Below are positions 1,939 to 44,978 of a stretch of 45,040 nucleotides of DNA, in pieces; within the stretch, counting starts at the first letter, position 1; every line of letters begins with the position of its first letter. Source of the stretch: Candidatus Desulfatibia vada (GTDB lineage: Bacteria; Desulfobacterota; Desulfobacteria; Desulfobacterales; UBA11574); contig JACNIG010000122.1 in assembly GCA_014383215.1 (NCBI GenBank), forward strand, positions 1-45,040, given 5' to 3'. The notes under the pieces were generated by a model, which was given only the letters and a program-made list of their open reading frames with translations, did no database searches and was not told where the DNA came from. The position numbers were made by a program, and so were the translations under genes.

Positions 1939-4900
1939 ATGAGAGCAATAATGGGCAAAAAACTGCTTGTCGGCTTTATCATCGTTGTACTGCTGATGGT
2001 TGTGCTGGCCGTATATTTGACGGATGTCAGTCAGCATTCCCTGCAGCAGGCTGTCGGCACAAATTCCATATTGCTGGCAGGAGAGATGCTCGAGCGTATA
2101 AACTCTGCTGTTTATGACAAAATTGAAGAGCTGCAATCACACCTCACAGATGAATCATTGCAAAACATTATACGGCATTCAAACAAAGAATTTGAAAATC
2201 TGGACAGCCTTCAAGAGTATGTTACTCAAAAGGATAGAGAATGGGTGCAGACTCCCAAGGATCAAATTACGCCCTTTATGCAAGTATTGATCCATAACGA
2301 GCTTTCGAATCATCTGAGAAGAGAGTTGGTCGAGTTCTATAATAACAAGTATGGCTACAAGTTTTTTGGGGAGATTATTGTAACCAACAAGTACGGAGCA
2401 AACGTTGCGCAAACCGGGAGAACGTCTGATTACAGGCAAGATGATGAAACGTGGTGGCAGATTGCACGCGATACAGGGTTTTATGTGTCCGATATAGCCT
2501 ATGATGTAAGTGCCGGAATCTATGCTGTCAGTATCAGCGTCAGGATTGAAGACGAAAATGGCGACTTTATTGGAGCAATTAAAGCTATTCTGGCTGTTAA
2601 GGATATTGTCAGAACAGAAGAAATTGCAACCAGAAAACACAAAACAACAGAAATCAAATTAACGACCAAGGATGGAAAACTGATTTATGCCACCAAAGTT
2701 TTCAAAATTCTCGAAGACGTATCCGGCAAAGAATATTTCAAAAATATAAAAGGAGCAAACGGCTCCTTTATTGCCGTGGAAGACGGAATAAAACGGCTGT
2801 ATTCCTATACGCGGTCTACCGGTTATCGAGAATTTGCCGGACTGGGGTGGATTCTTCTGGTGGGGCATGACGTCGCCGAAGTATTGCAACCCGCAATTAT
2901 GTTGAAAAACCACATGATAGCCGCCTCCCTGGTGCTGATTCTTTTGAGCATGGTTATCGCCTCTTTCTTTTATGCTTTTATCTCCAAAGCAGAAGCGCAG
3001 ATCCAACGGCAGAGTGCCATTCTGGATGCCATCAACAAAGTGTTCAGAAAAGCATTGGCGTGCGATAAAGAAGAAGATCTGGCGCTCATATGCCTTGCGA
3101 TCGCCGAGGAATTGACCGCCAGCAAGTTCGGCTTTATAGGCGAGATAACCTCGAAAGGTCGCTATAACTGCCTGGCCTTGAGTGATCCGGGATGGGAAGC
3201 CTGCCGGGTGCCGGAATCCCACGCCCCACTATTAATGAAGAACATGAAAATAAGCGGAATCTGGGGACGGGTACTTCAAGACGAAAAATCCCTGATCTCC
3301 AACGATCCCGCTTCCCACCCCGACCGCGCAGGTCCTCCTCCGGGCCACCCCCCCATAACTTCTTTTCTGGGAGTTCCCTTGAAACACAGCGGCAAGACCA
3401 TCGGCCTGATTGCTTTGGGCAACAAAAAAGGCGGCTATACCCTGCATAACCAGCATGCCGTGGAAACCTTATCCGTTGCCGTGGTGGAGGCGCTGATGCG
3501 CTACCGCGCAAAAGAAGAGCTTAGAGAATACCGCCATCACCTTGAAGATCTGGTGGAATCGCGTACCGCCAAACTTGAAGAATCCAACCAGCGGCTTCAG
3601 GCCGAGATCATCGAGCGGATACAGACCGCAGAGGCCCTCAAGGAAAGCGAGGAGAAGTACCGTTCCATTCTCGACAGTATCGAAGACGGCTACTGGGAAG
3701 TCGATATTGACGGGAACTACACCTTCTTCAATGATGCCATGTGCAGGATACTCAGGTACCCTAAAGATGAATTAGCGGGCATGAATAATCGTAAATACAT
3801 GGACAAAGAAAACGCCAAGAAAGTATTAAAAACCTTTAACAACGTTTACCGTACAGGAATATCTACAAGAGCACTCGACTGGAAGCTCATCAGAAAAGAC
3901 GGTTCTGAATGTTTTATTGAAACGATGGTATCTCTGATGAAGGATCCGGACGGACAGCCGACAGGTTTTCGAGGTGTTGCCCGCGATATCACCGAGCGCA
4001 AGTTAGGAGAAGTGGAAAAAAAGAAGATGGCAGCGCAGCTGCAGCAGGTCGAACGTATGGAGTCTTTAGGCACGCTTGCCGGCGGGGTTGCCCATGACTT
4101 CAACAACCTGCTCATGGGTATCCAGGGGCGCACCTCTTTGATGATGATAGATGAAGATTTTACCCACCGCCATCTCGAACATCTGCGGAGTATCGAAAAA
4201 TATGTTGTAAATGCTACTGACCTTACCAAGCAGCTTTTGGGTTTTGCCAGGGGCGGAAAATACGAAGTCAAGCCGTCAAACCTGAACGAACTGGTTAAAA
4301 ACAACTCTGAAATGTTCGGCCGCACCAAAAAAGAGATTACGATTCACTCGAAATTTCAGGAAAATATCTGGCCGGTCGCGATTGACCGGGGACAGATCGA
4401 GCAGGTTTTGTTGAACCTCTATGTCAATGCCTGGCATTCAATGCCCGGAGGCGGAGATCTATACATTGAAACAGAAAATCTGATGCTGAACAAACAATAT
4501 GTCGAATCCTATCAAAAAGATGTTGGCCGATATGTTAAGATTACGATTACCGATACCGGCATCGGGATGGATAAAGCCACGCAAACAAAAATATTTGAAC
4601 CCTTTTTTACTACCAAAGAAATGGGCCGGGGAACCGGCTTAGGGCTGGCTTCCGTGTACGGAATTATCAACAATCATGATGGCTTTATAAGCGTTTACAG
4701 TGAAAAGGGGATCGGCACAACTTTCAATATTTTCCTGCCGACTTCGGAAAAAGAAGTCGTCGAAGAAAAGAGGCCGTCTGATGATATTTCAAAAGGTACG
4801 GAGACCGTTCTTATTGTTGATGACGAACAGATGATTATTGATGTCAGCAAAGCTCTGCTGGCAAAGATGGGATACAATGTGCTGACTGCCGGAGGAGGAA

Positions 4901-5166
4901 AAGAAGCCCTTGAAATTTATAAAGCGTATAAACTCAAGATAGATCTTGTGATCCTTGATATGATTATGCCGAATATGGGGGGTAGCGAAACCTTTGACCA
5001 ACTCAAAGAGATCAACCCGGATGTTAAGGTTCTGCTTTCAAGCGGCTATAGCATCGATGGTCAGGCCACGGAAATATTGGAGCGAGGTTGCAGCGGCTTT
5101 ATTCAAAAACCTTTCAATTTGAAAAGACTATCCCAAAAATTAAGAAATATTCTGGATAAGAAATGA
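1939..5166 (+). CDS. Membrane hybrid sensor histidine kinase (Cache-GAF-PAS-HK-REC)
   Basis: This 1075-residue protein starts with a membrane segment (residues about 8-27), followed by an extracytoplasmic Cache-like sensor region and a second membrane segment near 324-346. Then come a GAF-like domain (about 370-520), a coiled coil, a PAS domain (about 570-687), a HisKA domain with phosphoacceptor His719 in [11 protein letters not shown], an HATPase domain with GRGTGLGL near 896, and a C-terminal receiver with Asp1007 in VILDMIMP and Lys in IQKPF. It autophosphorylates on His and relays to its own receiver by family rule; the ligand is unknown. The start could be the ATG at 1939 or at 1951; neither has a strong ribosome site. 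Its kinase-receiver half is closely similar to that of the kinase at 30941-33187. Confidence 0.93.
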   Translation: MRAIMGKKLLVGFIIVVLLMVVLAVYLTDVSQHSLQQAVGTNSILLAGEMLERINSAVYDKIEELQSHLTDESLQNIIRHSNKEFENLDSLQEYVTQKDREWVQTPKDQITPFMQVLIHNELSNHLRRELVEFYNNKYGYKFFGEIIVTNKYGANVAQTGRTSDYRQDDETWWQIARDTGFYVSDIAYDVSAGIYAVSISVRIEDENGDFIGAIKAILAVKDIVRTEEIATRKHKTTEIKLTTKDGKLIYATKVFKILEDVSGKEYFKNIKGANGSFIAVEDGIKRLYSYTRSTGYREFAGLGWILLVGHDVAEVLQPAIMLKNHMIAASLVLILLSMVIASFFYAFISKAEAQIQRQSAILDAINKVFRKALACDKEEDLALICLAIAEELTASKFGFIGEITSKGRYNCLALSDPGWEACRVPESHAPLLMKNMKISGIWGRVLQDEKSLISNDPASHPDRAGPPPGHPPITSFLGVPLKHSGKTIGLIALGNKKGGYTLHNQHAVETLSVAVVEALMRYRAKEELREYRHHLEDLVESRTAKLEESNQRLQAEIIERIQTAEALKESEEKYRSILDSIEDGYWEVDIDGNYTFFNDAMCRILRYPKDELAGMNNRKYMDKENAKKVLKTFNNVYRTGISTRALDWKLIRKDGSECFIETMVSLMKDPDGQPTGFRGVARDITERKLGEVEKKKMAAQLQQVERMESLGTLAGGVAHDFNNLLMGIQGRTSLMMIDEDFTHRHLEHLRSIEKYVVNATDLTKQLLGFARGGKYEVKPSNLNELVKNNSEMFGRTKKEITIHSKFQENIWPVAIDRGQIEQVLLNLYVNAWHSMPGGGDLYIETENLMLNKQYVESYQKDVGRYVKITITDTGIGMDKATQTKIFEPFFTTKEMGRGTGLGLASVYGIINNHDGFISVYSEKGIGTTFNIFLPTSEKEVVEEKRPSDDISKGTETVLIVDDEQMIIDVSKALLAKMGYNVLTAGGGKEALEIYKAYKLKIDLVILDMIMPNMGGSETFDQLKEINPDVKVLLSSGYSIDGQATEILERGCSGFIQKPFNLKRLSQKLRNILDKK

Positions 5167-16434: not shown

Positions 16435-16902
16435 ATGAACCCAGCAGAAATTGAACAAGCTTTGGAACACTGCGAGTTTTTCGAGCGGCTGGAAAAAAGT
16501 GATATATCTGAGATCGCCGGACTCTGCCAGGTGAACACATATGAGGGTGGTGAATATGTTTTTCAGCAGGGTGATTATGGAGAGTATATTTATGTTGTAG
16601 TTCAGGGCCGCGTAAACCTTGTAAGGCACCTTGATCTGGGTGCCCGCATGGGAGAAGTGGTTATTGAAGCCCTTGGCAAGGGCAGGGTTTTGGGTTGCTG
16701 GTCAACGCTGCTGGATCTGCCCCACATCCTCATGTCCTCGGCTGCCTGTCAAAAGCCGACAACAACCCTGGCAATAAAGGGAGCTGATTTAAGAAAAATT
16801 ATGAATAGTAACACCGCCCTTGGATTCAATATAATGGAAAGGCTTAGTTTTCTTCTCCGGGACAGAATCCAGGCCGCTTACGGTGCCATGGAAAAAATAT
16901 AG
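16435..16902 (+). CDS. Cyclic nucleotide-binding domain protein without DNA-binding domain
   Basis: The 155-residue product is a single cNMP-binding beta-roll domain. It has YVFQQGDYGEYIYVVVQGRVNLV, typical of the CRP/FNR fold, then GRVLGCWSTLLDLPHI in the place of the phosphate-binding cassette. The usual Arg of the PBC is not evident, so cyclic nucleotide binding is doubtful. It ends in the dimerisation helix with no HTH, so it is not itself a transcription factor. The ATG is preceded by AAGAGG. It converges on the glycosyltransferase gene with 15 bases between the stops. Confidence 0.85.
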   Translation: MNPAEIEQALEHCEFFERLEKSDISEIAGLCQVNTYEGGEYVFQQGDYGEYIYVVVQGRVNLVRHLDLGARMGEVVIEALGKGRVLGCWSTLLDLPHILMSSAACQKPTTTLAIKGADLRKIMNSNTALGFNIMERLSFLLRDRIQAAYGAMEKI

Positions 16903-16917
16903 CCAAACAATCGCAGA

Positions 16918-17646
16918 TTATGGCTTATTGGGTCGCCGGTACCAAACCGAACAAACGTTCCGATACCGTAATGAAAAAGGGAAGACCGTTGTCATCAAAG
17001 CCGTAAGCCCCAATTGCACCGGGGAATACCACTCTAGTTTGCGACTGGAAGTTACAACCCGTGGGGATGTAATCATGTGAAAGGCCTTTTGTTTCCGGTA
17101 GCCCCATGATTGCAGCCGGTTAGAGAACCAAATTTCCTCACTGGCGTAAACCTTCTGACTGAATCCGCCGACAGCTTCGAATCCTTCCCGCAGGCAATAG
17201 ATGAAACATCCGGCCGCAAAACCGAATTGCACAGAAACCCAATTCCACAGATCCAAAGCCTTGCGGGCAAGAGGCTGAAGCGGTTTGTCAAAATCCACCA
17301 AACTCCCTCCGCCGCAGCACCGGCCGCCGGAGAGATTGTCCAGCGCGGTCTGCAGCAAAGCAGACGAAACCATGGTATCAGCATCTATAAAGATAAGATA
17401 GCGGCCTTGCGCAACCCTTGCTCCTGTATTCCGTGCCCTGGAGATCTGGTTGACCGGTTCGAACACGACCTGCGCGTTGTCTTCCCGGGCAATCTGAGGA
17501 GTTCGGTCCGTAGAATTATTATCGACGACAATGACCTCTCCTTGCAGAGACAGAGAGCCCATAGCCTCCCGGAGCGCCGTAAGGGTATTAGGCAACCATT
17601 GTTCTTCGTTATATGCCGGAATAATTACTGAGTAGTGAATCGTCAT
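16918..17646 (-). CDS. Family 2 glycosyltransferase
   Basis: The protein of about 242 residues begins with the GT-A signature YSVIIPAYNEEQWL, then VIVVDNNSTDRT, the DXD-type metal site FIDADT, and a later ASEEIWFSNRL acceptor-side motif. It transfers a sugar from a nucleotide-sugar; the acceptor is unknown. There are no clear membrane helices apart from a hydrophobic stretch near the middle, VQFGFAAGCFIYCL. The ATG at 17646 fits the family N-terminus; a TTG 15 bases upstream is less likely. It stands alone, not in a polysaccharide cluster. Confidence 0.9.
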   Translation of the reverse strand: MTIHYSVIIPAYNEEQWLPNTLTALREAMGSLSLQGEVIVVDNNSTDRTPQIAREDNAQVVFEPVNQISRARNTGARVAQGRYLIFIDADTMVSSALLQTALDNLSGGRCCGGGSLVDFDKPLQPLARKALDLWNWVSVQFGFAAGCFIYCLREGFEAVGGFSQKVYASEEIWFSNRLQSWGYRKQKAFHMITSPRVVTSSRKLEWYSPVQLGLTALMTTVFPFSLRYRNVCSVWYRRPNKP

Positions 17647-23925: not shown

Positions 23926-24774
23926 ATGAAAAAAATGCCGCAACTGCTTATTATTCTGCTGGCAAGTATTGTCTTGAGCCATTGCGCCTTTTCCGGCAAC
24001 AATAGCTGGGACAGCCAGGTGAGCGGTCCGCTAGGAATGCCGGAGGAGACCCGCAACCTGGTGCAGAAACTCATCACCAACAGTAAAAAGGCCGGAAACA
24101 AAACCGGCCTGACTATCACATATCCCTTTGACGGAACTGTTTTTCCGCCTGAAATCGCAGCACCTGTTATTGTATGGCAGGACGCCGGCTCTGCCTCGAA
24201 GCACTGGCTTATCATAGTTGAATTTCGCAGCCGGCTCAGTCCGATTTACGCGCTTGTTGATAAGCAGCACTGGATGCCGGACCAAACGATCTGGGAAATC
24301 ATCAAAGCCAACTCCGTCCATGGCGCTGCCAAGATAACCGTTTGCGGTTTTGACAACAAACATGCCGGCAACATCACCGCCAAGAACAGCATCAGCATTT
24401 TAACTTCAAAAGATCGGGTTGATGCCGCCATATTTTACCGGCAGGTTCAGCTCCCCTTTAAAGTCGGGAAAAAAAATTTTAAAAAGATTAAGTGGCGTCT
24501 CGGTGACATCTCTGCATATGAAAAACCGGCAGTTGTAATGGAAAATCTTGATGTTTGTGCAAGCTGTCACCTTTTTTCAAAAGACGGCACATTAATCAGC
24601 ATGGAGATGAACTACAAAGATGACAGCGGCGCTCACTTTATCACGCCGGTTGCAGAGAATATTGAATTGTCCGGCAAGGATTTCATGACCTGGAATGATT
24701 TTCCAAAACCGGAACTGCTGCCGAAAACCAGGGGGCTGTTTGCCAAGATATCGCCCACCGAAAATACATGGTAA
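23926..24774 (+). CDS. Haem-binding (CxxCH) lipoprotein-like protein, 5-prime part of a frame-broken gene
   Basis: This 282-residue frame starts with a signal peptide (possible weak lipobox ending at Cys20) and carries one c-type haem motif, CASCH (Cys211, Cys214, His215). It ends at AKISPTENTW, where homologous propeller proteins would continue as SP-x-GKY. Reading one base differently near 24758-24761 joins it to the frame at 24768-25532, giving SPT-GKYMVSTAHEISY. The two therefore look like one gene of about 535 residues, interrupted by a single-base deletion or a sequencing error. The toxin gene ends 13 bases upstream; the fatty acid isomerase lies downstream. Confidence 0.75.
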   Translation: MKKMPQLLIILLASIVLSHCAFSGNNSWDSQVSGPLGMPEETRNLVQKLITNSKKAGNKTGLTITYPFDGTVFPPEIAAPVIVWQDAGSASKHWLIIVEFRSRLSPIYALVDKQHWMPDQTIWEIIKANSVHGAAKITVCGFDNKHAGNITAKNSISILTSKDRVDAAIFYRQVQLPFKVGKKNFKKIKWRLGDISAYEKPAVVMENLDVCASCHLFSKDGTLISMEMNYKDDSGAHFITPVAENIELSGKDFMTWNDFPKPELLPKTRGLFAKISPTENTW

Positions 24775-25532
24775 GTACGGCACATGAGATATCCTATGCG
24801 GCCCTGACCAATGATTTTGCTTTCTGCCAGCTCTTCTTCCCGACTTACGGCGTGCTGGCCTGGTATGCTGTTGACCAAAAAAAGTTTCAGCTTCTTCCCG
24901 GAGCTGATGACTATGACTTTGTACAGACAGACCCGAGCTGGAGCTGGGATGAAAAGTATATCGTATTTGCCAGGGCCCATACAAAAAACGAGTACCACAA
25001 AGATATCACCAACATCCGCACCCATATCGAGAATGCCGATATTCATGAACTGAATCAAAGGTTTCCCATACAGTATGACCTATATAGGATTCCGTTCAAT
25101 CAGGGCCAAGGCGGAACACCTGAGCCCCTGCAAGGTGCCGGCCGTAACGGGATGAGCAACTATTTTCCGAGATATTCACCGGACGGAAAGTGGATCGTTT
25201 TCACACGCAGCAAAACCGGCATCATGCTTCAGCCGGACAGCGAGCTTTTCATTATACCGGCAGCCGGCGGAGTCCCTCGCAGGATGCAATGCAACCGCAA
25301 GCTTTTCAACTCCTGGCACAGCTTTGCACCCAATGGGAAGTGGATGCTGTTCAGTTCCAAGGCTAACACTCCTTTTACCGAAATTTTTCTGACACATATT
25401 GATAAAAACGGACTTGACAGTCCTCCGGTATGCTTATCCCGTTTCAGCGATGACCGCTACGCCGCCAATGTACCGGAGTTCGTGAACATAGAAGCAGGAA
25501 CCATTAAGAGAATAGTTATCAGTGATCAGTAA
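24768..25532 (+). CDS. TolB/PD40-type beta-propeller, 3-prime part of a frame-broken gene
   Basis: The 254-residue frame is made of WD40-like/PD40 blades, seen as DPSWSWDEKYIVFAR, RYSPDGKWIVFTRSKTG and SFAPNGKWMLFSSKANT. It lacks its own signal peptide and its ATG at 24768 has no ribosome site, which fits a continuation of the preceding frame and not a separate gene. The complete product would be a periplasmic haem-plus-propeller protein. The last codons and stop lie inside a degenerate TGATCAGTAAG repeat. Together with the isomerase gene, 87 bases downstream, it may form an operon. Confidence 0.72.
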   Translation: MVSTAHEISYAALTNDFAFCQLFFPTYGVLAWYAVDQKKFQLLPGADDYDFVQTDPSWSWDEKYIVFARAHTKNEYHKDITNIRTHIENADIHELNQRFPIQYDLYRIPFNQGQGGTPEPLQGAGRNGMSNYFPRYSPDGKWIVFTRSKTGIMLQPDSELFIIPAAGGVPRRMQCNRKLFNSWHSFAPNGKWMLFSSKANTPFTEIFLTHIDKNGLDSPPVCLSRFSDDRYAANVPEFVNIEAGTIKRIVISDQ

Positions 25533-30940: not shown

Positions 30941-33187
30941 TCACCTGTTATCCAAAATCTCCCTTATTTTTTGCGACATATTTTGTATATCAAAGGGCTT
31001 TTGGATAAAACCGTCGCAGCCCCGTTCCAATATTTCGGCAGCCTGACCATGGATGCTATATCCACTCGAAAGCAGGACTTTTAGATCCGGATTGACCTTT
31101 TTCAATTTGTCATAAGTCTCACCACCGTCCATTTCCGGCATAATCATGTCAAGGATGACCATATCAATATAGTCCTTATTTTCTTGACAAATTTTGATTG
31201 CATCCGTTCCATTTCTGGCGATTAAAGCCCTGTATCCAAGTATCGCCAGTAGTTCCTTACCCACATCGATTATAATCTCCTCATCATCAACTAAAAGAAC
31301 AGTCTCCGACCCTTTTAGTATTTTTTGTTCCTTTGCCTTCTCTTTGATGACTTCTCCTTTGGAAGCCGGCAGATAAATGTCGAACACCGCCCCTTCACCC
31401 TTTACACTCTTGACATCTATGAAACCACCATGATTCTTGATGATGCCATAAACAGAAGAGAGTCCTAAGCCAGTGCCTCTGCTCATTTCCTTGGTTGTAA
31501 AAAACGGATCAAATATCCTCTTCCGGGTTGCAGCATCCATACCAACGCCTGTATCGGCAACCGAAATTTTTACATAATTACCCGGCTTGACTTCCAAGGG
31601 CTCGGTGCAATTTTCATCAAGGGTGACATTTTCTGTTTGAACATATAAAATTCCACCTCCGGGCATTGACTGCCAGGCATTGATATAAAGATTCAACAGA
31701 ACCTGTTCTATCTGCCCCTGATCGACAACTGCAGGCCAAAGATTGTTTTCATACTTTTCACGAATAGTGATCTCTTTCTTAGTCCGCCCAAACATATGAT
31801 TCTGTTTTTTAACAATTTCGTTTATATCTGCCGGTTTGACTTCATATTTTCCGCCTCTAGCAAAGCCCAGAAGCTGCTTGGTAAGATCCGATGCACTTTT
31901 AACATATTCTTCTATTCCTTTGAGATGTTCAAAATAGGGTTGGGATGAATCCGTATCCGCCGTCATTAAAGAAGCGCGTCCCTGGATTCCCATCAGCAGG
32001 TTGTTAAAGTCGTGTGCAATCCCTCCGGCTAAAGTTCCGATGGCCTCCATCTTCTGCGATTGCCGGACGTGGACTTCAAGTTTCCTGCTCTCTTCCTCAG
32101 CCTGCTTCTTCGAGGTTAAATCAATAACGTTTCCCATGCAGGCACTGTGCCCATTGAAGTCGATTGTTGTAGCAAAAAGGCCGAACCATACTGGTTCGCC
32201 ATTCTTTTGTATGGCGCGAAACTCGTAGTGTGTTATGGCATCAGCTCCGTTGGACCTGGCCAGCTCTCTCTCTTTAACCATATTACGATCTTCATGATGT
32301 ACAAAATCCCAAAGGTTCTTATCTGTCATTTCCCCAAGTGAATAGCTCAGCATCTGTGCCAGACAATCATTTACATATACAATTTTTCCATATAGATGGA
32401 TGAATATTCCGGTTAAGGACTGATCGGTTAAGGCACGATATCGCTCTTCTGATTGCCTGAGGTTATCTATCAGTTGATCTCTTTCTTTAACCGTTTCTTC
32501 ATAATCAGCTATCAAATCTTTGCTGGTGATTCTTAAAATCCATCTAAGCATTTGTTTTAGAAAACCGGGCCCTTTCTTCCATGTCATACGGAGAGAGCAA
32601 TGTTCGCCACCATTAACGACACATTCGATTTCCTCACATTTCACATCCACGGCACCTGTCATTTTGGCTATGCCTATATAGATCCCCATATTCCAGTTAC
32701 AGATATCTTTGGTAACCCGAAAACCGGGATAATAATGGAGTTCGAACACGGCTGAATTATTTGTCAATTCAGAAAGCTTTACCTCTTTCGTTCTGTTAAA
32801 ACGAGCATTGATCTTTGCCGGCTGTGTACAAATAAATTTGGTGCTGACTATTCTGCTGAAAAAAAGGATGGTTTTGGAAAACTGTTCGATGACGGCATCC
32901 TCACCTGCTTTAACCAGGGCATTAGAACCGCCGACAACCTTTTTAGCATTGGCAAAAAAAGTCAGAGAAAATTCATTTGAAACCCAATATGCGGAATCAT
33001 TCAAGTGGTGTTCATGGACTCGTATCAGGTTTGAGGGGTTTTCTTTATCTGCAACAAGATAGCTGTTATTATCAACTAAACCATCGAGTGTCTGCCCCAC
33101 GCCCTCATCGCCATAGTGCTTTGTCAAGTAGCCCAATAACCCACGAAAATTGGAACAATTTACATCCTTGTCCATCAACATTATCAT
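30941..33187 (-). CDS. Cytoplasmic hybrid histidine kinase with V4R-like sensor, PAS and receiver
   Basis: This 748-residue kinase has no membrane segment. Residues 1-215 resemble a 4-vinyl-reductase-like/haem-NO-binding-like sensor module, seen in the [18 protein letters not shown] stretch with its two Cys. A PAS domain follows (about 245-365), then HisKA with phosphoacceptor His392 in [11 protein letters not shown], an HATPase with [13 protein letters not shown], and a receiver with Asp680 in VILDMIMP. It is a paralogue of the kinase at 1939-5166 from HisKA to the end, with a different sensor. V4R domains bind small hydrophobic molecules, so an internal chemical signal is likely. Confidence 0.92.
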
Positions 33188-39023: not shown

Positions 39024-40289
39024 ATGAAAATCAATTCCTTGGCGAGGGTAGTTTTGTCGTGCCTGATGGCCGTGACATTGGCAGCCTGCGCCGCCGAAAA
39101 ACCGATCGACATTGCAGCGGCCACGTCGCAGCCCAAGGCGTTCGTCGGCTCGGATACGTGTAAGCAGTGTCATCTGGAGCACTATGATTCCTGGCAGATG
39201 ACTTTGCACAGCCGCATGCTGCAGGATGCCAAAGCAAACGAGGACGCCCTTATCGTGCCGATTGAAGAGGAAAGGATTCGCGCAGATCTCGCCAAGCTGG
39301 AGCAAAAGCTCAAGGTGCCGTCGGACAAGGTATACGTTCCCAAAACCGATGAAATCCTTTACACCATCGGCAGCCAGTGGAAACAGCGCTATTTGGTAAA
39401 AAAGGACGGGACCCTTTTCATTTCTCCGATTCAGTACAACGCCGATACCCACCGCTGGGTCAATTACCACGAAAACGACTGGGACAAGCGGCCCTGGCTC
39501 AAAAAATGCGGCGGTTGCCATGCCACCGGAGCCGATCTTGAAAAAGGCACCTTCGTCGAGCCGGGAGTGGCCTGCGAAGCGTGTCACGGCAAGGGTTCCT
39601 GGCATGCGGCCCTGCCTAAGACCGCTGTTTTTGAAAAGCGCCAGACTATTGTTAATCCGGCCAAACTGACCATGGGAGTGGCCGCCCAGATTTGCGGTTC
39701 CTGCCACAATCGCGGCCATGCCACCAAAGTTAAAGGGGCCGGCTGGCCGGTGGGCTATGCGCCCGGCAAGGCTCTGGAGGCGTATTACGAATCCACTTCC
39801 TTTGAAGGCGGTGACGTAAAGCACGTGTATGCCAACGAATTTTCCAAGGGACATCACCAGCAATTTATCGACTGGCAACAGTCGAAACATGCTGCCGAAG
39901 GTGTGACCTGCACGTCCTGCCACTACGTGCATCAGATCGGCATTCCGCCCACCCGCTCTCAGACGCTGGCGGCAGGCTCCAAACAGTGCCTTTCCTGTCA
40001 CGAAATTTTGAACAACAATCTGGCGCACTCCATCCACTCTTTTGCCAACTGCGTGGGTTGCCACATGCCCAGGATCGCCAAGAGTGCCGAATCCGGAGAT
40101 ATACACAGCCACGTATTTGTTACCTTGCTGCCCAGGGACACCCTGGCCAATCCGAAAGTTCCCAATTCGTGCCAGACCTGCCACAAGCACAAGGATGCTG
40201 ATTTGAAGACGCTCCAGGAGGCGTACGATGCCCTGGCCAAACTTCCCAAACCTGTGGCCGTAGCGACTAAAACCGTTATATATGAATAA
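39024..40289 (+). CDS. Octahaem c-type cytochrome lipoprotein
   Basis: The 421-residue product has a lipoprotein signal with LAAC (Cys22) and eight CxxCH haem motifs: CKQCH, CGGCH, CEACH, CGSCH, CTSCH, CLSCH, CVGCH and CQTCH. Spacing and the first block YDSWQMTLHSRML resemble cytochrome c554/c-prime type proteins. It probably carries electrons in the periplasm or on the outer membrane; whether it also reduces a substrate is unknown. GAGGAGG lies seven bases before the ATG. It begins an operon with the trihaem and cytochrome b genes. A long antisense frame opposite it is not coding. Confidence 0.9.
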   Translation: MKINSLARVVLSCLMAVTLAACAAEKPIDIAAATSQPKAFVGSDTCKQCHLEHYDSWQMTLHSRMLQDAKANEDALIVPIEEERIRADLAKLEQKLKVPSDKVYVPKTDEILYTIGSQWKQRYLVKKDGTLFISPIQYNADTHRWVNYHENDWDKRPWLKKCGGCHATGADLEKGTFVEPGVACEACHGKGSWHAALPKTAVFEKRQTIVNPAKLTMGVAAQICGSCHNRGHATKVKGAGWPVGYAPGKALEAYYESTSFEGGDVKHVYANEFSKGHHQQFIDWQQSKHAAEGVTCTSCHYVHQIGIPPTRSQTLAAGSKQCLSCHEILNNNLAHSIHSFANCVGCHMPRIAKSAESGDIHSHVFVTLLPRDTLANPKVPNSCQTCHKHKDADLKTLQEAYDALAKLPKPVAVATKTVIYE

Positions 40290-40311: not shown

Positions 40312-41022
40312 ATGAAAAGGAAGCAATGGTATCAAATGCCTCTCCTCTGGATTGCCGGGCTCGTTCTGCTTGTTCTGATGGTACTTCCGAACATGGCCGC
40401 TGCCCAGGGAGAAGAAGTGGCATCGGCCCTGCGACGGTACAAGCAATATGAGGTCAGCACCGGATATTACGAAGAATATGAGGCCCGGCCGCGTCACGAG
40501 CGCCCCCGGGTAACGGTCCCGTCGCGCCGGCGGCGTCTTCTAGGGCTCCCTTACAGCTCGACGGCAGCCTCTGTGAGGATCCGCACGCGTCTGTCGGATT
40601 CTCACCTAGGCATTAAGTTTTACGACAACCGCCGCTGTGAGGACTGCCATGTCGAACAGACCCGGGATATGCATACGACCCGGGCCAATCTGACCTGCCG
40701 CCAGTGTCACGGCGGAGAGCCTGTCGCCAGTATCGATCACTACTTTTCACCCATGAACCCTATCCGGAAGCACGCCTATGTGTGCGCCAAGTGCCACGAA
40801 GGGGCCAATGCTTCCTTTGCTTCCTATGTTATCCATGAACCTTCGGCCGGATCACTGACCGCCAAGACGAGCTTTCCGGTTTTGTATTATACTTACTGGT
40901 TCATGCTCATCCTTTTAGTGGGTACGCTGGCTTTCTTTGTACCGCACAGTTTCTTAGCGGGTTTGCGGGAATTATTTACGAAAAAGGGAAAGGCAACAGA
41001 GGATACCGACGATGTACATTAA
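40312..41022 (+). CDS. Membrane-anchored trihaem c-type cytochrome
   Basis: The 236-residue product has an N-terminal hydrophobic signal or anchor (residues about 8-30), an Arg-rich stretch (VPSRRRRLLGL), three CxxCH motifs (CEDCH, CRQCH, CAKCH) and a C-terminal membrane segment (YTYWFMLILLVGTLAFF). It resembles the haem subunits that link a membrane cytochrome b to periplasmic cytochromes. The stop overlaps the start of the next gene by 11 bases, so it is coupled with the cytochrome b. Confidence 0.88.
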   Translation: MKRKQWYQMPLLWIAGLVLLVLMVLPNMAAAQGEEVASALRRYKQYEVSTGYYEEYEARPRHERPRVTVPSRRRRLLGLPYSSTAASVRIRTRLSDSHLGIKFYDNRRCEDCHVEQTRDMHTTRANLTCRQCHGGEPVASIDHYFSPMNPIRKHAYVCAKCHEGANASFASYVIHEPSAGSLTAKTSFPVLYYTYWFMLILLVGTLAFFVPHSFLAGLRELFTKKGKATEDTDDVH

Positions 41023-41830
41023 ACGATTTAGCATATTAGACCGTGTGTTTCATGTTTTCCTGATGCTGACTTTTCTGACACAGACCGCCACCGGTTTCAG
41101 CCGCCTGTTCATTACTACCGCCTGGGGAAAGCAACTCAGCAGCCTCTTCGGCGGATATGAAAGTTGCGGCCTGATTCACCGGCGGGCAGGTATGATCATG
41201 GTAGCAGGTTTTCTGGTGCACATCATCTACCTGTTGACGAGGATCAACTGGCAAAATCTTGGCCAGAGCCTGTTCGGGCCGGACTCCCTGATTCCCAACC
41301 TTGATGATGTGCGGCATATCTTACAGAGAATCCTCTGGACGTTTGGTATTGGTTCACCGCCTGAATTGAATCGATGGGCCTACTGGGAAAAGTTCGATTA
41401 CTGGGCGGTCTTCTGGGGGATGCCGCTATTGGCCGTCACCGGCCTGATGCTGATTTATCCCATCATATCCAGCCGCTATGTGCCCGGATGGTCCCTCAAC
41501 GTCGCCGCCCTTTTGCACAAGGCTGAAGCCATCCTGGCAGTCACGTACATTTTTATCGTTCATTTTTTTGTCGGGCATCTGCGGCCCACCTGTTTTCCCA
41601 TGAACGAGGTGATGTTTTCAGGGGGGCTGCCACTGGAAGAAGCGCTGGAGGAAAAACCCGCATGGGTGGCGCGGCTGAAGGCTGAGGGGAAGTTGGAATC
41701 CGCAACCGCGGACCCTCCTGCATTGTGGTTCAGGGCGGTATATTTTGTTTTCGGTTACGGCGCTTTGGGATTTGGCCTCTATATGCTGATAAACGGATTG
41801 ATTTACAGCCCATATGTAACCCTGCACTAA
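41012..41830 (+). CDS. Membrane cytochrome b (FdnI/NarI-like, b561-type)
   Basis: The 272-residue protein has four to five membrane helices with His residues placed for two b haems: RVFHVFLMLTF in helix 1, CGLIHRRAGM and GFLVHIIYLL in helix 2, and LLHKAEAILAVTYIFIVHFF. This is the pattern of formate-dehydrogenase gamma / cytochrome b561-type subunits that exchange electrons with the quinone pool. With the tri- and octahaem proteins it makes a quinol:cytochrome module reminiscent of Desulfovibrio Ohc-type complexes. The direction of flow is not determined. Confidence 0.88.
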   Translation: MYIKRFSILDRVFHVFLMLTFLTQTATGFSRLFITTAWGKQLSSLFGGYESCGLIHRRAGMIMVAGFLVHIIYLLTRINWQNLGQSLFGPDSLIPNLDDVRHILQRILWTFGIGSPPELNRWAYWEKFDYWAVFWGMPLLAVTGLMLIYPIISSRYVPGWSLNVAALLHKAEAILAVTYIFIVHFFVGHLRPTCFPMNEVMFSGGLPLEEALEEKPAWVARLKAEGKLESATADPPALWFRAVYFVFGYGALGFGLYMLINGLIYSPYVTLH

Positions 41831-41920
41831 CAGAAATCTTTGCGGAATAAGGCCGGCGGCGGATTCGAGAGTTTGCGCGAGAACCCGGATTGTTTCGTTT
41901 TTTATTGCAAGCGAATTTTA

Positions 41921-41959
41921 GAAAGCTCAAAGTTATACTTTGAGCTTTCTTTTTTTTTG
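41921..41959 (+). terminator. Intrinsic terminator after the cytochrome operon
   Basis: GAAAGCTCAAAG and CTTTGAGCTTTC form a perfect 12-pair stem with a TTATA loop, followed by nine or more T. It separates the cytochrome operon from the copper-protein genes. The rest of the 41831-42130 gap holds only a degenerate GATGCTGGA direct repeat near 42091-42118. Confidence 0.92.
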
Positions 41960-42130
41960 AGTTCAGCAAAAACCATTCATCTTGACTTAAGTCAATGAAT
42001 TGGCTTTGAGAATGGTTTATATTGTAGCAAAACTTAGCCTCACAACGACGAGTTGATGTTTAACATTTTGCAACGTTTCAGGCCCAAGCGATGCTGGAGA
42101 CCGGATGTTGATGCTGGATAAAGGTAAGTC

Positions 42131-42601
42131 ATGAAGATCAGCGGAAAAAAGTCGGAATTTATTTTTCTTATTTTATTAATTTCAATTGTCGTGGGATTGC
42201 CGCTGGGCATCCTGGCCTATGACCGTTACTTATGGCCGCATAAAACAACTTCCGGCGCCAGAGAATTTACCCTCACAGGCAGTGCCCAAAGCGGCTGGCT
42301 GCTGGGTGAAGTTCAGGCCCATGATATTCTCTCTTTCGAAAAAAAGCAGGGGTCTTCCCAAAAGCCGGTGATAGAGGTTTCCAAAGGCGATCTGGTTGTT
42401 ATTAAGTTAAGGAGTAGTGATGTGGCCCACGGTTTCAGCCTTAAAGCCTTCGGGGTCTATCTGACCGAACCAATAAAGCCGGGGAAAACTGCGTTTGTAT
42501 CCTTTAAGGCGGATAAGGTCGGCACCTTTGTCTTTGCGTGCAATGTTTTCTGCGGCGGCATTCATCAGAACATGAAAGGTATATTGGTCGTTAAACCCTA
42601 A
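42131..42601 (+). CDS. Membrane-anchored CuA-type cupredoxin (NosZ/COX2-like domain)
   Basis: The 156-residue product has one N-terminal membrane anchor (about residues 11-31) and a periplasmic cupredoxin. The CuA ligands are complete: His100 in DVAHGF, then CNVFCGGIHQNM with Cys137, Cys141, His145 and Met148. DVxHGF is more like the CuA domain of nitrous oxide reductase than the DVIHSW of cytochrome oxidase subunit II. The rest of NosZ or an oxidase is absent, so it should be an electron carrier or a copper site for a partner. An AAGG site precedes the ATG. Confidence 0.87.
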   Translation: MKISGKKSEFIFLILLISIVVGLPLGILAYDRYLWPHKTTSGAREFTLTGSAQSGWLLGEVQAHDILSFEKKQGSSQKPVIEVSKGDLVVIKLRSSDVAHGFSLKAFGVYLTEPIKPGKTAFVSFKADKVGTFVFACNVFCGGIHQNMKGILVVKP

Positions 42602-42672
42602 GCCGAATATTTCATGCAAAAACCGAAAAGGGTTTCAAATTCTACGAATGCGGACAAACCTTTATTGTCGCT

Positions 42673-44610
42673 ATGCCAAAACATATGAGCAGAAAAAAAA
42701 CATGGCTTGTTATTCTATTAAGCTTTGAACTGGCAGTGCTAATCCCCCTTTCTCTTGCCTTCTTGCCGATAACGCCCCGCACACATACAATCTTATTGGA
42801 AGCCAGAAAATTCGGCTACTCCCCTGCAAGGATTGTCGTCAATAAAGGCGATACAATTGCATTAAGTATGGCTTCTGCGGATGTTCCCCACGGCTTCTTT
42901 CTGGATGGATATCCACTGGAACTCATAAACAAGCAGGGTGTAACATTCCGCAAATATACCTGGCAGGATCATGAAGGCAAACCTATAACCGACTGGGACA
43001 GGGTTTCATCAACCAAATTTGTGGCAAGCAGGCCGGGCAAGTTCACATTCCGATGTATCCAAACCTGCGGAAATCTTCATCCCTTTATGACCGGCGAATT
43101 GATCGTAAGGCCAAACACCTCGTATCATCTCATGGCCTCATTATCCATATGGACGGTATTTTGTGTGTTATTTTTGATACGGTTCGATTCTCCAACTCGT
43201 TTTTCCGGCTTCAAACGAATTAACATTTTAGATCGCCTGCCGGGTCTGAAACGGCTGGTCAAACATCGCAGCTTTCAATTTTTAATTATTTTGCCAAATG
43301 TTGTCGTCTTTTACCTGTTTATACTAAGCAGCCTGTGGGGAAGCCCGGTGGGTAACCGCAATGTCGCCATCATCTTCGTGTGGATTCTCTGGTGGTTTGT
43401 CTTAAAGGCCATTATTGTTCCCCTGGGCGGCAGGATCTGGTGCATGGTTTGTCCGCTGCCGGCACCGGCCGAGTGGCTCAGCCGCAAACGCTTAACGACC
43501 GTTAAGTACTTTCAAAAGCCGTTTAAGCGTCTGCATCACCGGTTTACCGGACTTCAGAAGGACTGGCCCAAAAAGATGGATAATATATGGCTTCAAAATA
43601 TTCTCTTTCTGGTCCTGATTTCATTTGGAATGATACTGATTACACGCCCCATTGCCACGGCGATCATTTTCCTGATTATTTTAGGCCTAACCCTTGTTCT
43701 TGCTCTTATTTTCCGGCAGCGTGTCTTTTGTCTTTATCTGTGCCCCGTAGGCGGATTTTTAGGCACCTATTCCATGGCATCCATGACCGCAGTGCGTGTC
43801 ATAGACCCGGACATCTGCAAAAAGCATCGGGAAAAATCCTGCTTGGCCGGCGGACCCGGCGGCTGGGCCTGCCCCTGGAATCAGTACATCGGCAAGATGA
43901 GTCGAAACAATTACTGCGGGCTGTGTACAGAATGCATCAAGAGTTGCCCCAAGGATAATGTGGGGGTTTTCTTTAGACCCTTTGGCTCGGACCGAATGTT
44001 GCGCGGCTATGACGAGATGTTCAACGTAATGATCATGCTGGTGGTGGCCATTGCCTTCAGCATTACCATGCTGGGACCCTGGGGTTTCATCAAAGATGCG
44101 GCCAATGTGACCGAAAGCGGACAGATTATCCCTTTTCTGATATATCTGGCCTCAATCTGGACCCTTGCATTGCTAATATTCCCCGGTCTCTTTGCGCTTA
44201 CTGCCAAAGGGGCCAACCGTCTGGCCGGAAGACCGGCAGACGATCGTACCGTTACGCTGAAGCTTGCATACACCCTGATTCCGGTCGGCATTTTTGCCTG
44301 GATCGCCTTTAGTCTGCCGGCGGTCATGATCAACTATAATTATATTCTTTCAGTAATATCCGATCCCCTGGGGCTGGGATGGAACCTTTTTGGCACCGCA
44401 GATTATCCCTTCAACCCCCTTTATCCGCAATGGATTCCCTTGATCCAGGGCGGTATTTTGTTGGCCGGGCTCTATTTTGGACTGACCAGAGGTTATCTCG
44501 GGCTTAAAAACCTCGTTCAGGAACCATCCAGGCGCATCCGGATAATGATCCTTCCTTCCCTGTTTGCCCTTTTGGTGGTCAATTTATTACTAAAGCTGTA
44601 TATGGGCTGA
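42673..44610 (+). CDS. CuA cupredoxin fused to NosR/NapH-like polyferredoxin membrane protein
   Basis: This 645-residue protein has an anchor (residues about 10-31) and a periplasmic cupredoxin with a complete CuA set: His73 in DVPHGF and CIQTCGNLHPFM with Cys128, Cys132, His136 and Met139. Multiple membrane helices follow. The Cys motifs are CMVCP (257, 260), CLYLCP (353, 357), extra Cys382, 390 and 400, and a ferredoxin-type CGLCTECIKSCP (415, 418, 421, 425). The second part is like NosR or NapH, which pass electrons from quinol to periplasmic copper or molybdenum reductases. No reductase gene is next to it. The start may be Met1 or Met5. Confidence 0.88.
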   Translation: MPKHMSRKKTWLVILLSFELAVLIPLSLAFLPITPRTHTILLEARKFGYSPARIVVNKGDTIALSMASADVPHGFFLDGYPLELINKQGVTFRKYTWQDHEGKPITDWDRVSSTKFVASRPGKFTFRCIQTCGNLHPFMTGELIVRPNTSYHLMASLSIWTVFCVLFLIRFDSPTRFSGFKRINILDRLPGLKRLVKHRSFQFLIILPNVVVFYLFILSSLWGSPVGNRNVAIIFVWILWWFVLKAIIVPLGGRIWCMVCPLPAPAEWLSRKRLTTVKYFQKPFKRLHHRFTGLQKDWPKKMDNIWLQNILFLVLISFGMILITRPIATAIIFLIILGLTLVLALIFRQRVFCLYLCPVGGFLGTYSMASMTAVRVIDPDICKKHREKSCLAGGPGGWACPWNQYIGKMSRNNYCGLCTECIKSCPKDNVGVFFRPFGSDRMLRGYDEMFNVMIMLVVAIAFSITMLGPWGFIKDAANVTESGQIIPFLIYLASIWTLALLIFPGLFALTAKGANRLAGRPADDRTVTLKLAYTLIPVGIFAWIAFSLPAVMINYNYILSVISDPLGLGWNLFGTADYPFNPLYPQWIPLIQGGILLAGLYFGLTRGYLGLKNLVQEPSRRIRIMILPSLFALLVVNLLLKLYMG

Positions 44611-44699
44611 TACCCTAATTGCAGGGCTACTGACCTATCGTAAATTCAGATTCAACATATTTTAATGAAGAATCCACACCTTGAAGGCATATAAAAGAT

Positions 44700-44861
44700 G
44701 AACGTCGAACATCGAACATCGAACGTTGAACATCGAACGTTGAACATCGAATAATGTATTCTACCATTTATAATAAAGATAAAGCGACACGCGGCGCCTG
44801 CGCTGCGCGAGCGCCTTCCACATTCGACGTTCGACGTTGAACGTTCGATGTTCGATGTTCA
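44700..44861. repeat. Inverted-repeat element with GAACATCGAAC arms
   Basis: The left arm (44700-44751) repeats GAACGTC, GAACATC and GAACGTT words about seven times. The right arm (44820-44861) is its inverse, TTCGACGTTCGACGTTGAAC and TTCGATGTTCGATGTTC. The middle contains a GC-rich GGCGC...GCGCC hairpin near 44793-44815. Without arms that are exact repeats or unique spacers, it is not a CRISPR. It fills most of the 44611-44978 gap. Confidence 0.8.
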
Positions 44862-44978
44862 AATTGTTGCATCTGAAATTACGACTAAACCTTCATATCA
44901 CGTTGAAATTACGTATACAGGTCAGGAGTTCTGAATTGAGAGTAAACAAAATAAAGTTATCCACCTATTACTGATTTA

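Follow-up and report, generated by a model that had tools for sequence, protein, structure and literature searches.

The window analysed here, a stretch of 45,040 nucleotides from Candidatus Desulfatibia vada, carries near its end two adjacent genes with the hallmarks of CuA proteins, the second of them fused to a membrane polyferredoxin. To our knowledge CuA is known almost solely as the site where electrons enter haem-copper oxidases and N2O reductase. No NosZ or haem-copper oxidase is encoded in the window. No published description of this domain pair was found in the open-access literature. Read jointly, the evidence gives slightly better than even confidence that the pair is an electron conduit from membrane to periplasm, induced by an HcpR-type regulator and most likely feeding the reduction or detoxification of periplasmic nitrogen oxides.

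The ligand sets of both proteins were complete. In the small protein, CuA-2 (P0001), the ligands are His100 within SDVAHGF and C137-x3-C141-x3-H145-x2-M148. In the fusion, CuA-1 (P0002), they are His73 within ADVPHGF and C128-x3-C132-x3-H136-x2-M139. The fusion also has CxxCP (257/260) and CxxxCP (353/357) Fe-S motifs and two cubane-type cysteine sets (382, 390, 400; 415, 418, 421, 425). Neither the CuA ligands nor the Fe-S cysteines varied among 33 fusions, and the CuA ligands were likewise invariant in 23 small homologues, so a chance origin of these motifs is excluded. A distant fusion homologue in genome G048 (L112, 407-1531) had the axial Met of CuA replaced by Glu (CHVYCGLMHGFE). The full ligand set is therefore a trait of the close family and not of every relative.

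In Pfam P0001 matched COX2 (PF00116) with 26.1 bits against a cut-off of 22, and P0002 gave no COX2 match. P0002 exceeded the cut-off for Fer4_5, a domain present in all 33 of the fusions. The NCBIfam matches of P0001 were the CuA ends of NosZ, nitrosocyanin and CoxB, with the NosZ models scoring best. P0002 matched NapH/MauN and the CuA ends of L-NosZ, CoxB and NosZ. The top family for its membrane part was NapH/MauN (TIGR02163) at 27 bits, far under the cut-off of 213. No FMN-binding domain was found in the fusion (Pfam, E<=0.1) and the CuA domain sits there instead. The AlphaFold models had a pLDDT of 80.7 for P0001 and 72.2 for P0002, with low confidence in the Fe-S loops. By Foldseek both models matched cytochrome ba3 and N2O reductase in their CuA domains. 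Nitrosocyanin was a further match of P0001, and the matches of the fusion were confined to its CuA part. A sequence search gave no convincing solved homologue of the polyferredoxin part. Judged from sequence, P0001 and P0002 carry CuA-type domains, which are presumably loaded with copper. An initial annotation had described complete ligand sets of the DVxHGF form in both proteins and a CuA domain joined to a polyferredoxin membrane protein, and both descriptions held. The two genes were also confirmed at the positions that it gave. It had also considered that close homologues might lack the two Cys, which they all retain. Its NosR/NapH-like label stood as far as NapH/MauN is concerned and failed for NosR, the FMN-binding domain being missing.

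Table 1. Features predicted at the CuA locus (positions in the window)
Feature	Position	Strand	Remarks
Octahaem c-type cytochrome lipoprotein (8 CxxCH, lipobox LAAC), OcwA-related (6I5B)	39024..40289	+	Adjoins CuA pair in most type-A loci
Trihaem cytochrome c, signal sequence and C-terminal TM	40312..41022	+	
Cytochrome b561-type membrane subunit (FdnI-like)	41012..41830	+	PF01292
Intrinsic terminator ending the upstream cytochrome operon	41920..41950	+	Similar hairpin-T stretches in L001, L002, L003, L014, L033
Perfect palindrome TTGACTTAAGTCAA, predicted HcpR/FNR-type operator of CuA pair	41982..41995	.	Kept in type-A loci retaining the region
Likely -10 element TATATT, 22 bp past palindrome (class II activator spacing)	42018..42023	+	From sequence
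Small CuA protein (CuA-2, P0001), 156 aa	42131..42601	+	One N-terminal TM helix and CuA cupredoxin
CuA-polyferredoxin fusion (CuA-1, P0002), 645 aa	42673..44610	+	TM; CuA ~37-147; multi-TM NapH-like polyferredoxin ~175-645
CuA ligand segment of the fusion (H73, C128, C132, H136, M139)	42889..43089	+	Invariant in 33 homologues
Fe-S cysteines of the fusion	43441..43947	+	C257/C260-P, C353/C357-P, C382/C390/C400, C415/C418/C421/C425; invariant in 33 homologues

A single scan of GTDB contigs yielded 66 loci, which belonged to Desulfobacterota and Anaerolineae (Chloroflexota), plus a Planctomycetota fragment. The fusion with both domains was present in four genomes among 296 spread-sampled from the window's phylum. 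Carriers made up 42 of 200 sampled Anaerolineae genomes, about a fifth (threshold of at least 390 bits). Two copies of the system per genome were found in JABMQM, JAQYVG and JAOZSC. Three gene arrangements were distinguished. Type A, that of the window, comprises an octahaem lipoprotein, a trihaem cytochrome, a cytochrome b, CuA-2 and the CuA-polyferredoxin fusion. Type B, the commoner one in Desulfobacterota, comprises a small secreted protein, CuA-2, a pentahaem cytochrome, a type-1 cupredoxin, CcdA, a TlpA-like thioredoxin and the fusion. Type C, found in Anaerolineae, comprises a PCYCGC protein, a CuA-TM protein, a polyferredoxin and a CuA-cytochrome c fusion; its reading frames overlap and a two-component system usually follows. 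The invariable core of all three is a polyferredoxin with CuA-1 and CuA-2, usually adjoined by a c-type cytochrome. From the operon contents in Desulfobacterota and Anaerolineae, a cytochrome c partner recurs in all three arrangements. The conserved neighbours for which the initial annotation had suggested a search do exist, the pair or a split version of it being kept, usually beside c-type cytochrome genes, in both groups. Type A, known from seven or eight loci of which three are closely related, was nested in type B in the tree, with weak support (0.45) for type A as a whole and support of 1.0 and 0.995 for its two sub-clades. The window's type appears to be a derived branch.

Further proteins were seen at these loci. 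Proteins of the PCYCGC/CYCXC family adjoin the CuA system in both phyla (L044 9478-9951; L026 1587-2093). A second polyferredoxin with an N-terminal Ig-like domain (YtkA/FixH-like by eye) adjoins it at L009 7112-8953 and L026 2134-4140. Near the Anaerolineae system lies a third cupredoxin with an altered copper loop, CDICCGGRANPTM (L055, L057, L058, L065 ~16500-17260). At L034 (13206-15476), 1.3 kb from a type-B fusion, lies the gene for a COX1-family protein of 757 aa that resembles quinol-dependent NO reductase and gave no NCBIfam match.

The contig stops 430 bp past the fusion gene, and the initial annotation had named a full NosZ or oxidase operon just outside the window as a possibility. 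In L001, the closest relative at 95% identity, the fusion is followed by a response regulator and then by unrelated genes, with no nosZ or cox. The NosZ and L-NosZ models TIGR04246 and NF052460 matched only the two CuA domains in the window's own genome, with no CuZ beta-propeller. NosZ exceeded its cut-off in none of six tested genomes, and L-NosZ in none of nine. As a NosZ probe PF18764 had no match even in controls and was therefore left out as evidence. One aa3 oxidase operon is present in the genome, on another contig (C410), with its own COX2 and Sco. The search for copper enzymes that the annotation had proposed thus gave no NosZ and one oxidase. Since the genome is without NosZ and the aa3 oxidase has its own COX2, the missing reductase is no artefact of the window's edge. 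No COX1 was found in G002 and G004 (Leptolinea sp. HRD-7), both recorded as whole chromosomes with the CuA system. The statement that no CuZ or haem-copper catalytic subunit is in view was correct for the window, and the CuA pair occurs independently of NosZ and haem-copper oxidases.

Two readings would still tie the pair to these enzymes. As the aa3 operon exists and the CuA fold matches oxidase subunit II, the pair could be an accessory or alternative subunit II of that oxidase. Against this stand the operon's own COX2 and Sco, the two chromosomes with the system and no COX1, and an operator common to anaerobic nitrogen-oxide genes. COX1 co-occurrence in Anaerolineae also counts against it, with COX1 in 36/42 carriers and 114/158 non-carriers (Fisher p=0.08, not significant). 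A role as subunit II is extremely unlikely. The second reading takes the pair for the remnant, or a split form, of a nitrous-oxide reductase system, its catalytic subunit having been lost or having diverged; this is very unlikely. It draws on the NosZ models as best match of the small CuA protein, on the N-oxide regulon, and on G037 (L107, 4264-5178), where a YVTN beta-propeller gene adjoins the CuA genes. The likeness of this propeller to that of L-NosZ is weak (~43 bits), and it is a single case, a propeller having been noticed at no other locus. The missing FMN-binding domain of the membrane partner and the fact that neither NosZ nor L-NosZ passed its cut-off in any tested genome argue against a relic, as do the 27/42 Anaerolineae carriers without NosZ (present in 15/42; association Fisher p=0.11, not significant). 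Neither COX1 nor NosZ was found in 4/42 of these carriers.

A link to copper is seen in many relatives. A multicopper oxidase, a copper-type P1B ATPase or a CusA homologue lay within ~10 kb at 22 of the 66 loci, and NCBIfam identified tested neighbours as copper-translocating ATPases, CusA/CzcA, CusB and CopA/CueO-type multicopper oxidases. Most relatives have genes for a pentahaem cytochrome, a blue-copper protein and CcdA/TlpA as neighbours, frequently within islands of copper resistance, and are without the operator described below. The pair could accordingly be a copper-homeostasis module, with the CuA/polyferredoxin chain reducing periplasmic copper from Cu(II) to Cu(I) in the style of CcoG, relaying it, or aiding the loading of cuproproteins. 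The type-1 cupredoxin, CcdA and TlpA-like thioredoxin of type B are parts that serve CuA assembly elsewhere, and CYCXC/PCYCGC and Met-rich small proteins recur at the loci. However, nearby copper genes are a trait of types B and C; none lie near the pair in the window or in its closest relatives, and a multicopper oxidase occurs in type A only at L033. In addition, the CuA proteins gave no match to the CcoG family model (NCBIfam, E<=0.1), the window's branch has its operator in common with hcp, nap and hemerythrin genes, and CuA is an electron carrier in all well-characterised cases that we know of. A copper module is rather unlikely as the function of the pair. The initial annotation had offered copper insertion or sensing, for which the window's branch gave no direct support, and an electron chain to a copper-linked enzyme. 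The two CuA carriers of the latter stand and the copper linkage is borne out in relatives, but the window's own branch points to nitrogen oxides.

That indication comes from the promoter. The terminator closes the cytochrome operon, which leaves the CuA pair as a transcription unit of its own. Upstream of the small CuA gene the same 14-bp palindrome is present in the window, L001, L002 and L014, and has one base changed in L003, L015 and L033. Its spacing to the -10 element appears comparable in L003, L033 and the hcp promoter. No shared palindrome was found upstream of type-B operons, the exception being a weaker FNR-like site in L036. The exact 14-mer has five copies in the window's genome (expected 0.03). 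The general palindrome pattern, whose chance of occurring within 300 bp is ~0.0003, has 11 copies there compared to 3 for the control. Besides the one at the CuA pair, the exact copies stand ahead of hcp, of napDA plus two tetrahaem cytochromes (with a divergent CBS-domain gene on the other flank), of a hemerythrin gene and of a polyferredoxin gene. A copy with one base changed separates a frdX-like ferredoxin gene from the gene, on contig C228, for a CRP/FNR (HcpR-type) regulator. In L014 the 14-mer stands ahead of the CuA pair and again ahead of the adjoining napDA on one contig. In L018 it stands ahead of a DMSO-reductase-family molybdoenzyme downstream of the fusion.

In delta-proteobacteria outside Desulfovibrio the HcpR consensus is wyTTGACnnnnGTCAArw, with Arg180 changed to Ser or Pro (Rodionov et al., PMC1274295). 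TTGACTTAAGTCAA fits this consensus, and the regulator adjacent to frdX has PETLSR (P-E-x3-R) in its recognition helix, which is the reported Pro/Ser-180 change. The TTGACnnnnGTCAA palindrome upstream of the CuA pair is common to hcp and frdX, a trait of the HcpR regulon, and resembles other CRP/FNR sites as well. HcpR1 controls nap in D. desulfuricans, and NO induces hcp and hcpR1 (PMC5701242). The genome is a MAG, 92% complete and 6% contaminated, and the other regulon contigs might therefore be from another strain; L014, with both sites on one contig, partly answers this. The type-A CuA pair appears to be co-regulated with nitrate- and nitric-oxide-handling genes, with HcpR as the predicted regulator.

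Other features of the window and genome were recorded. Just past the fusion gene (44690-44870) are dense short direct and inverted repeats with GAACATCGAACG-type units, and similar units occur upstream of the CuA gene in L015. Two hybrid sensor kinases (1939-5166 and 30941-33187) are closely alike in their kinase-receiver halves. Two overlapping ORFs at 23926-25532 are apparently one frameshifted gene for a beta-propeller-like secreted protein. Contig C347 (L068, 31-2817) encodes a 928-aa protein in which, by eye, a cyclic-nucleotide-binding domain and a sigma-54-type AAA region are joined to a NosR/NapH-like membrane polyferredoxin. This is possibly an unusual redox-sensing regulator.

The cytochrome genes upstream of the pair offer a candidate acceptor. 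The octahaem lipoprotein is a homologue of OcwA (E=1e-21), which reduces nitrite and hydroxylamine in vitro and is a cell-surface terminal reductase in extracellular electron transfer (PMC6703420). No operator was found upstream of the octahaem operon itself, and in L015 the CuA pair has the operator without an octahaem operon directly upstream. The octahaem protein is for these reasons not an obligatory acceptor, just the best candidate. Electrons could alternatively pass through it to an extracellular or outer-membrane acceptor such as metal oxides or partner cells, given the surface role of OcwA and the predicted lipoprotein nature of the octahaem protein. This is improbable: the operon shows no porin or outer-membrane conduit, the operator ties the CuA pair to nap and hcp, and in the related operon type a pentahaem cytochrome takes the place of the octahaem protein. 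A 446-aa minus-strand ORF across the octahaem gene was discarded as an artefact of overlap. Elsewhere in the genome, contig C429 (L127, 4581-5972) encodes an octahaem HAO/HDH-like cytochrome a few genes before the hemerythrin gene bearing the HcpR-type site.

In the favoured reading, a conduit serving nitrogen-oxide reduction, the NapH-like polyferredoxin would draw electrons from menaquinol or from a cytoplasmic low-potential donor. Its 4Fe-4S centres would pass them to the fusion's own CuA domain, from there to the membrane-anchored CuA-2 and then to a c-type cytochrome, the acceptor probably being a multihaem one. CuA has a potential of ~+250 mV and menaquinol of ~-80 mV, so that the outward direction would be downhill. 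NosR has been proposed to donate electrons to a CuA enzyme (PMC7660919), and a CuA-fused polyferredoxin therefore most likely sends electrons outward. In type A an HcpR-type CRP/FNR regulator, acting at the CuA promoter, would induce the conduit under nitrate, nitrite or nitric oxide. The favoured acceptor there would be the adjoining OcwA-like octahaem lipoprotein or NapA. More tentatively, and at somewhat less than even confidence, the two-CuA and polyferredoxin wiring may be a unit independent of haem-copper oxidases and NosZ that, in relatives of sulphate reducers, feeds multihaem cytochromes which reduce nitrite, NO or hydroxylamine in the periplasm, and that has become connected to different cytochromes in Desulfobacterota and in Anaerolineae. 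If true, CuA would be a general wiring module, found as a pair without oxidase or NosZ and with a NapH-like input in anaerobic bacteria from two phyla. Through the link to an HcpR-type operator, a function in nitrogen-oxide respiration or defence of anaerobic sediment bacteria becomes testable, with a possible effect on nitrite, NO and N2O fluxes.

The locus was compared to known systems. PmoD has a CuA-type copper site outside oxidases and NosZ. It is an orphan copper protein (PMC6189053) of methane and ammonia oxidisers, with other enzyme partners and no polyferredoxin partner. CcoG/RdxA cupric reductase is also a membrane polyferredoxin, and the fusion's relatives have a copper context, but the fusion gave no match to a CcoG model and bears CuA. 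OcwA (6I5B) is related to the octahaem lipoprotein beside the pair, and we know of no CuA partner for it. COX2/CoxB has the same layout of N-terminal TM and CuA, and the small protein passes its Pfam cut-off; unlike COX2, the CuA operon is without a COX1 partner, and some carrier genomes are without any COX1. NosZ has a CuA cupredoxin fold and ligand set like those of the small protein and gave its top NCBIfam and Foldseek matches, whereas the small protein stands alone, anchored in the membrane, without a CuZ beta-propeller. NosR is likewise a membrane polyferredoxin with CxxCP-type Fe-S motifs and is the proposed donor to a CuA protein (PMC7660919); the fusion has a CuA domain in place of the FMN-binding periplasmic domain, in a genome without nosZ. 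The NapH/MauN ferredoxin-type quinol dehydrogenases are the nearest family for the membrane part by Fer4_5 and TIGR02163, and the fusion, far under the family cut-off, differs from them in having both a CuA domain and a multi-TM C-terminal extension.
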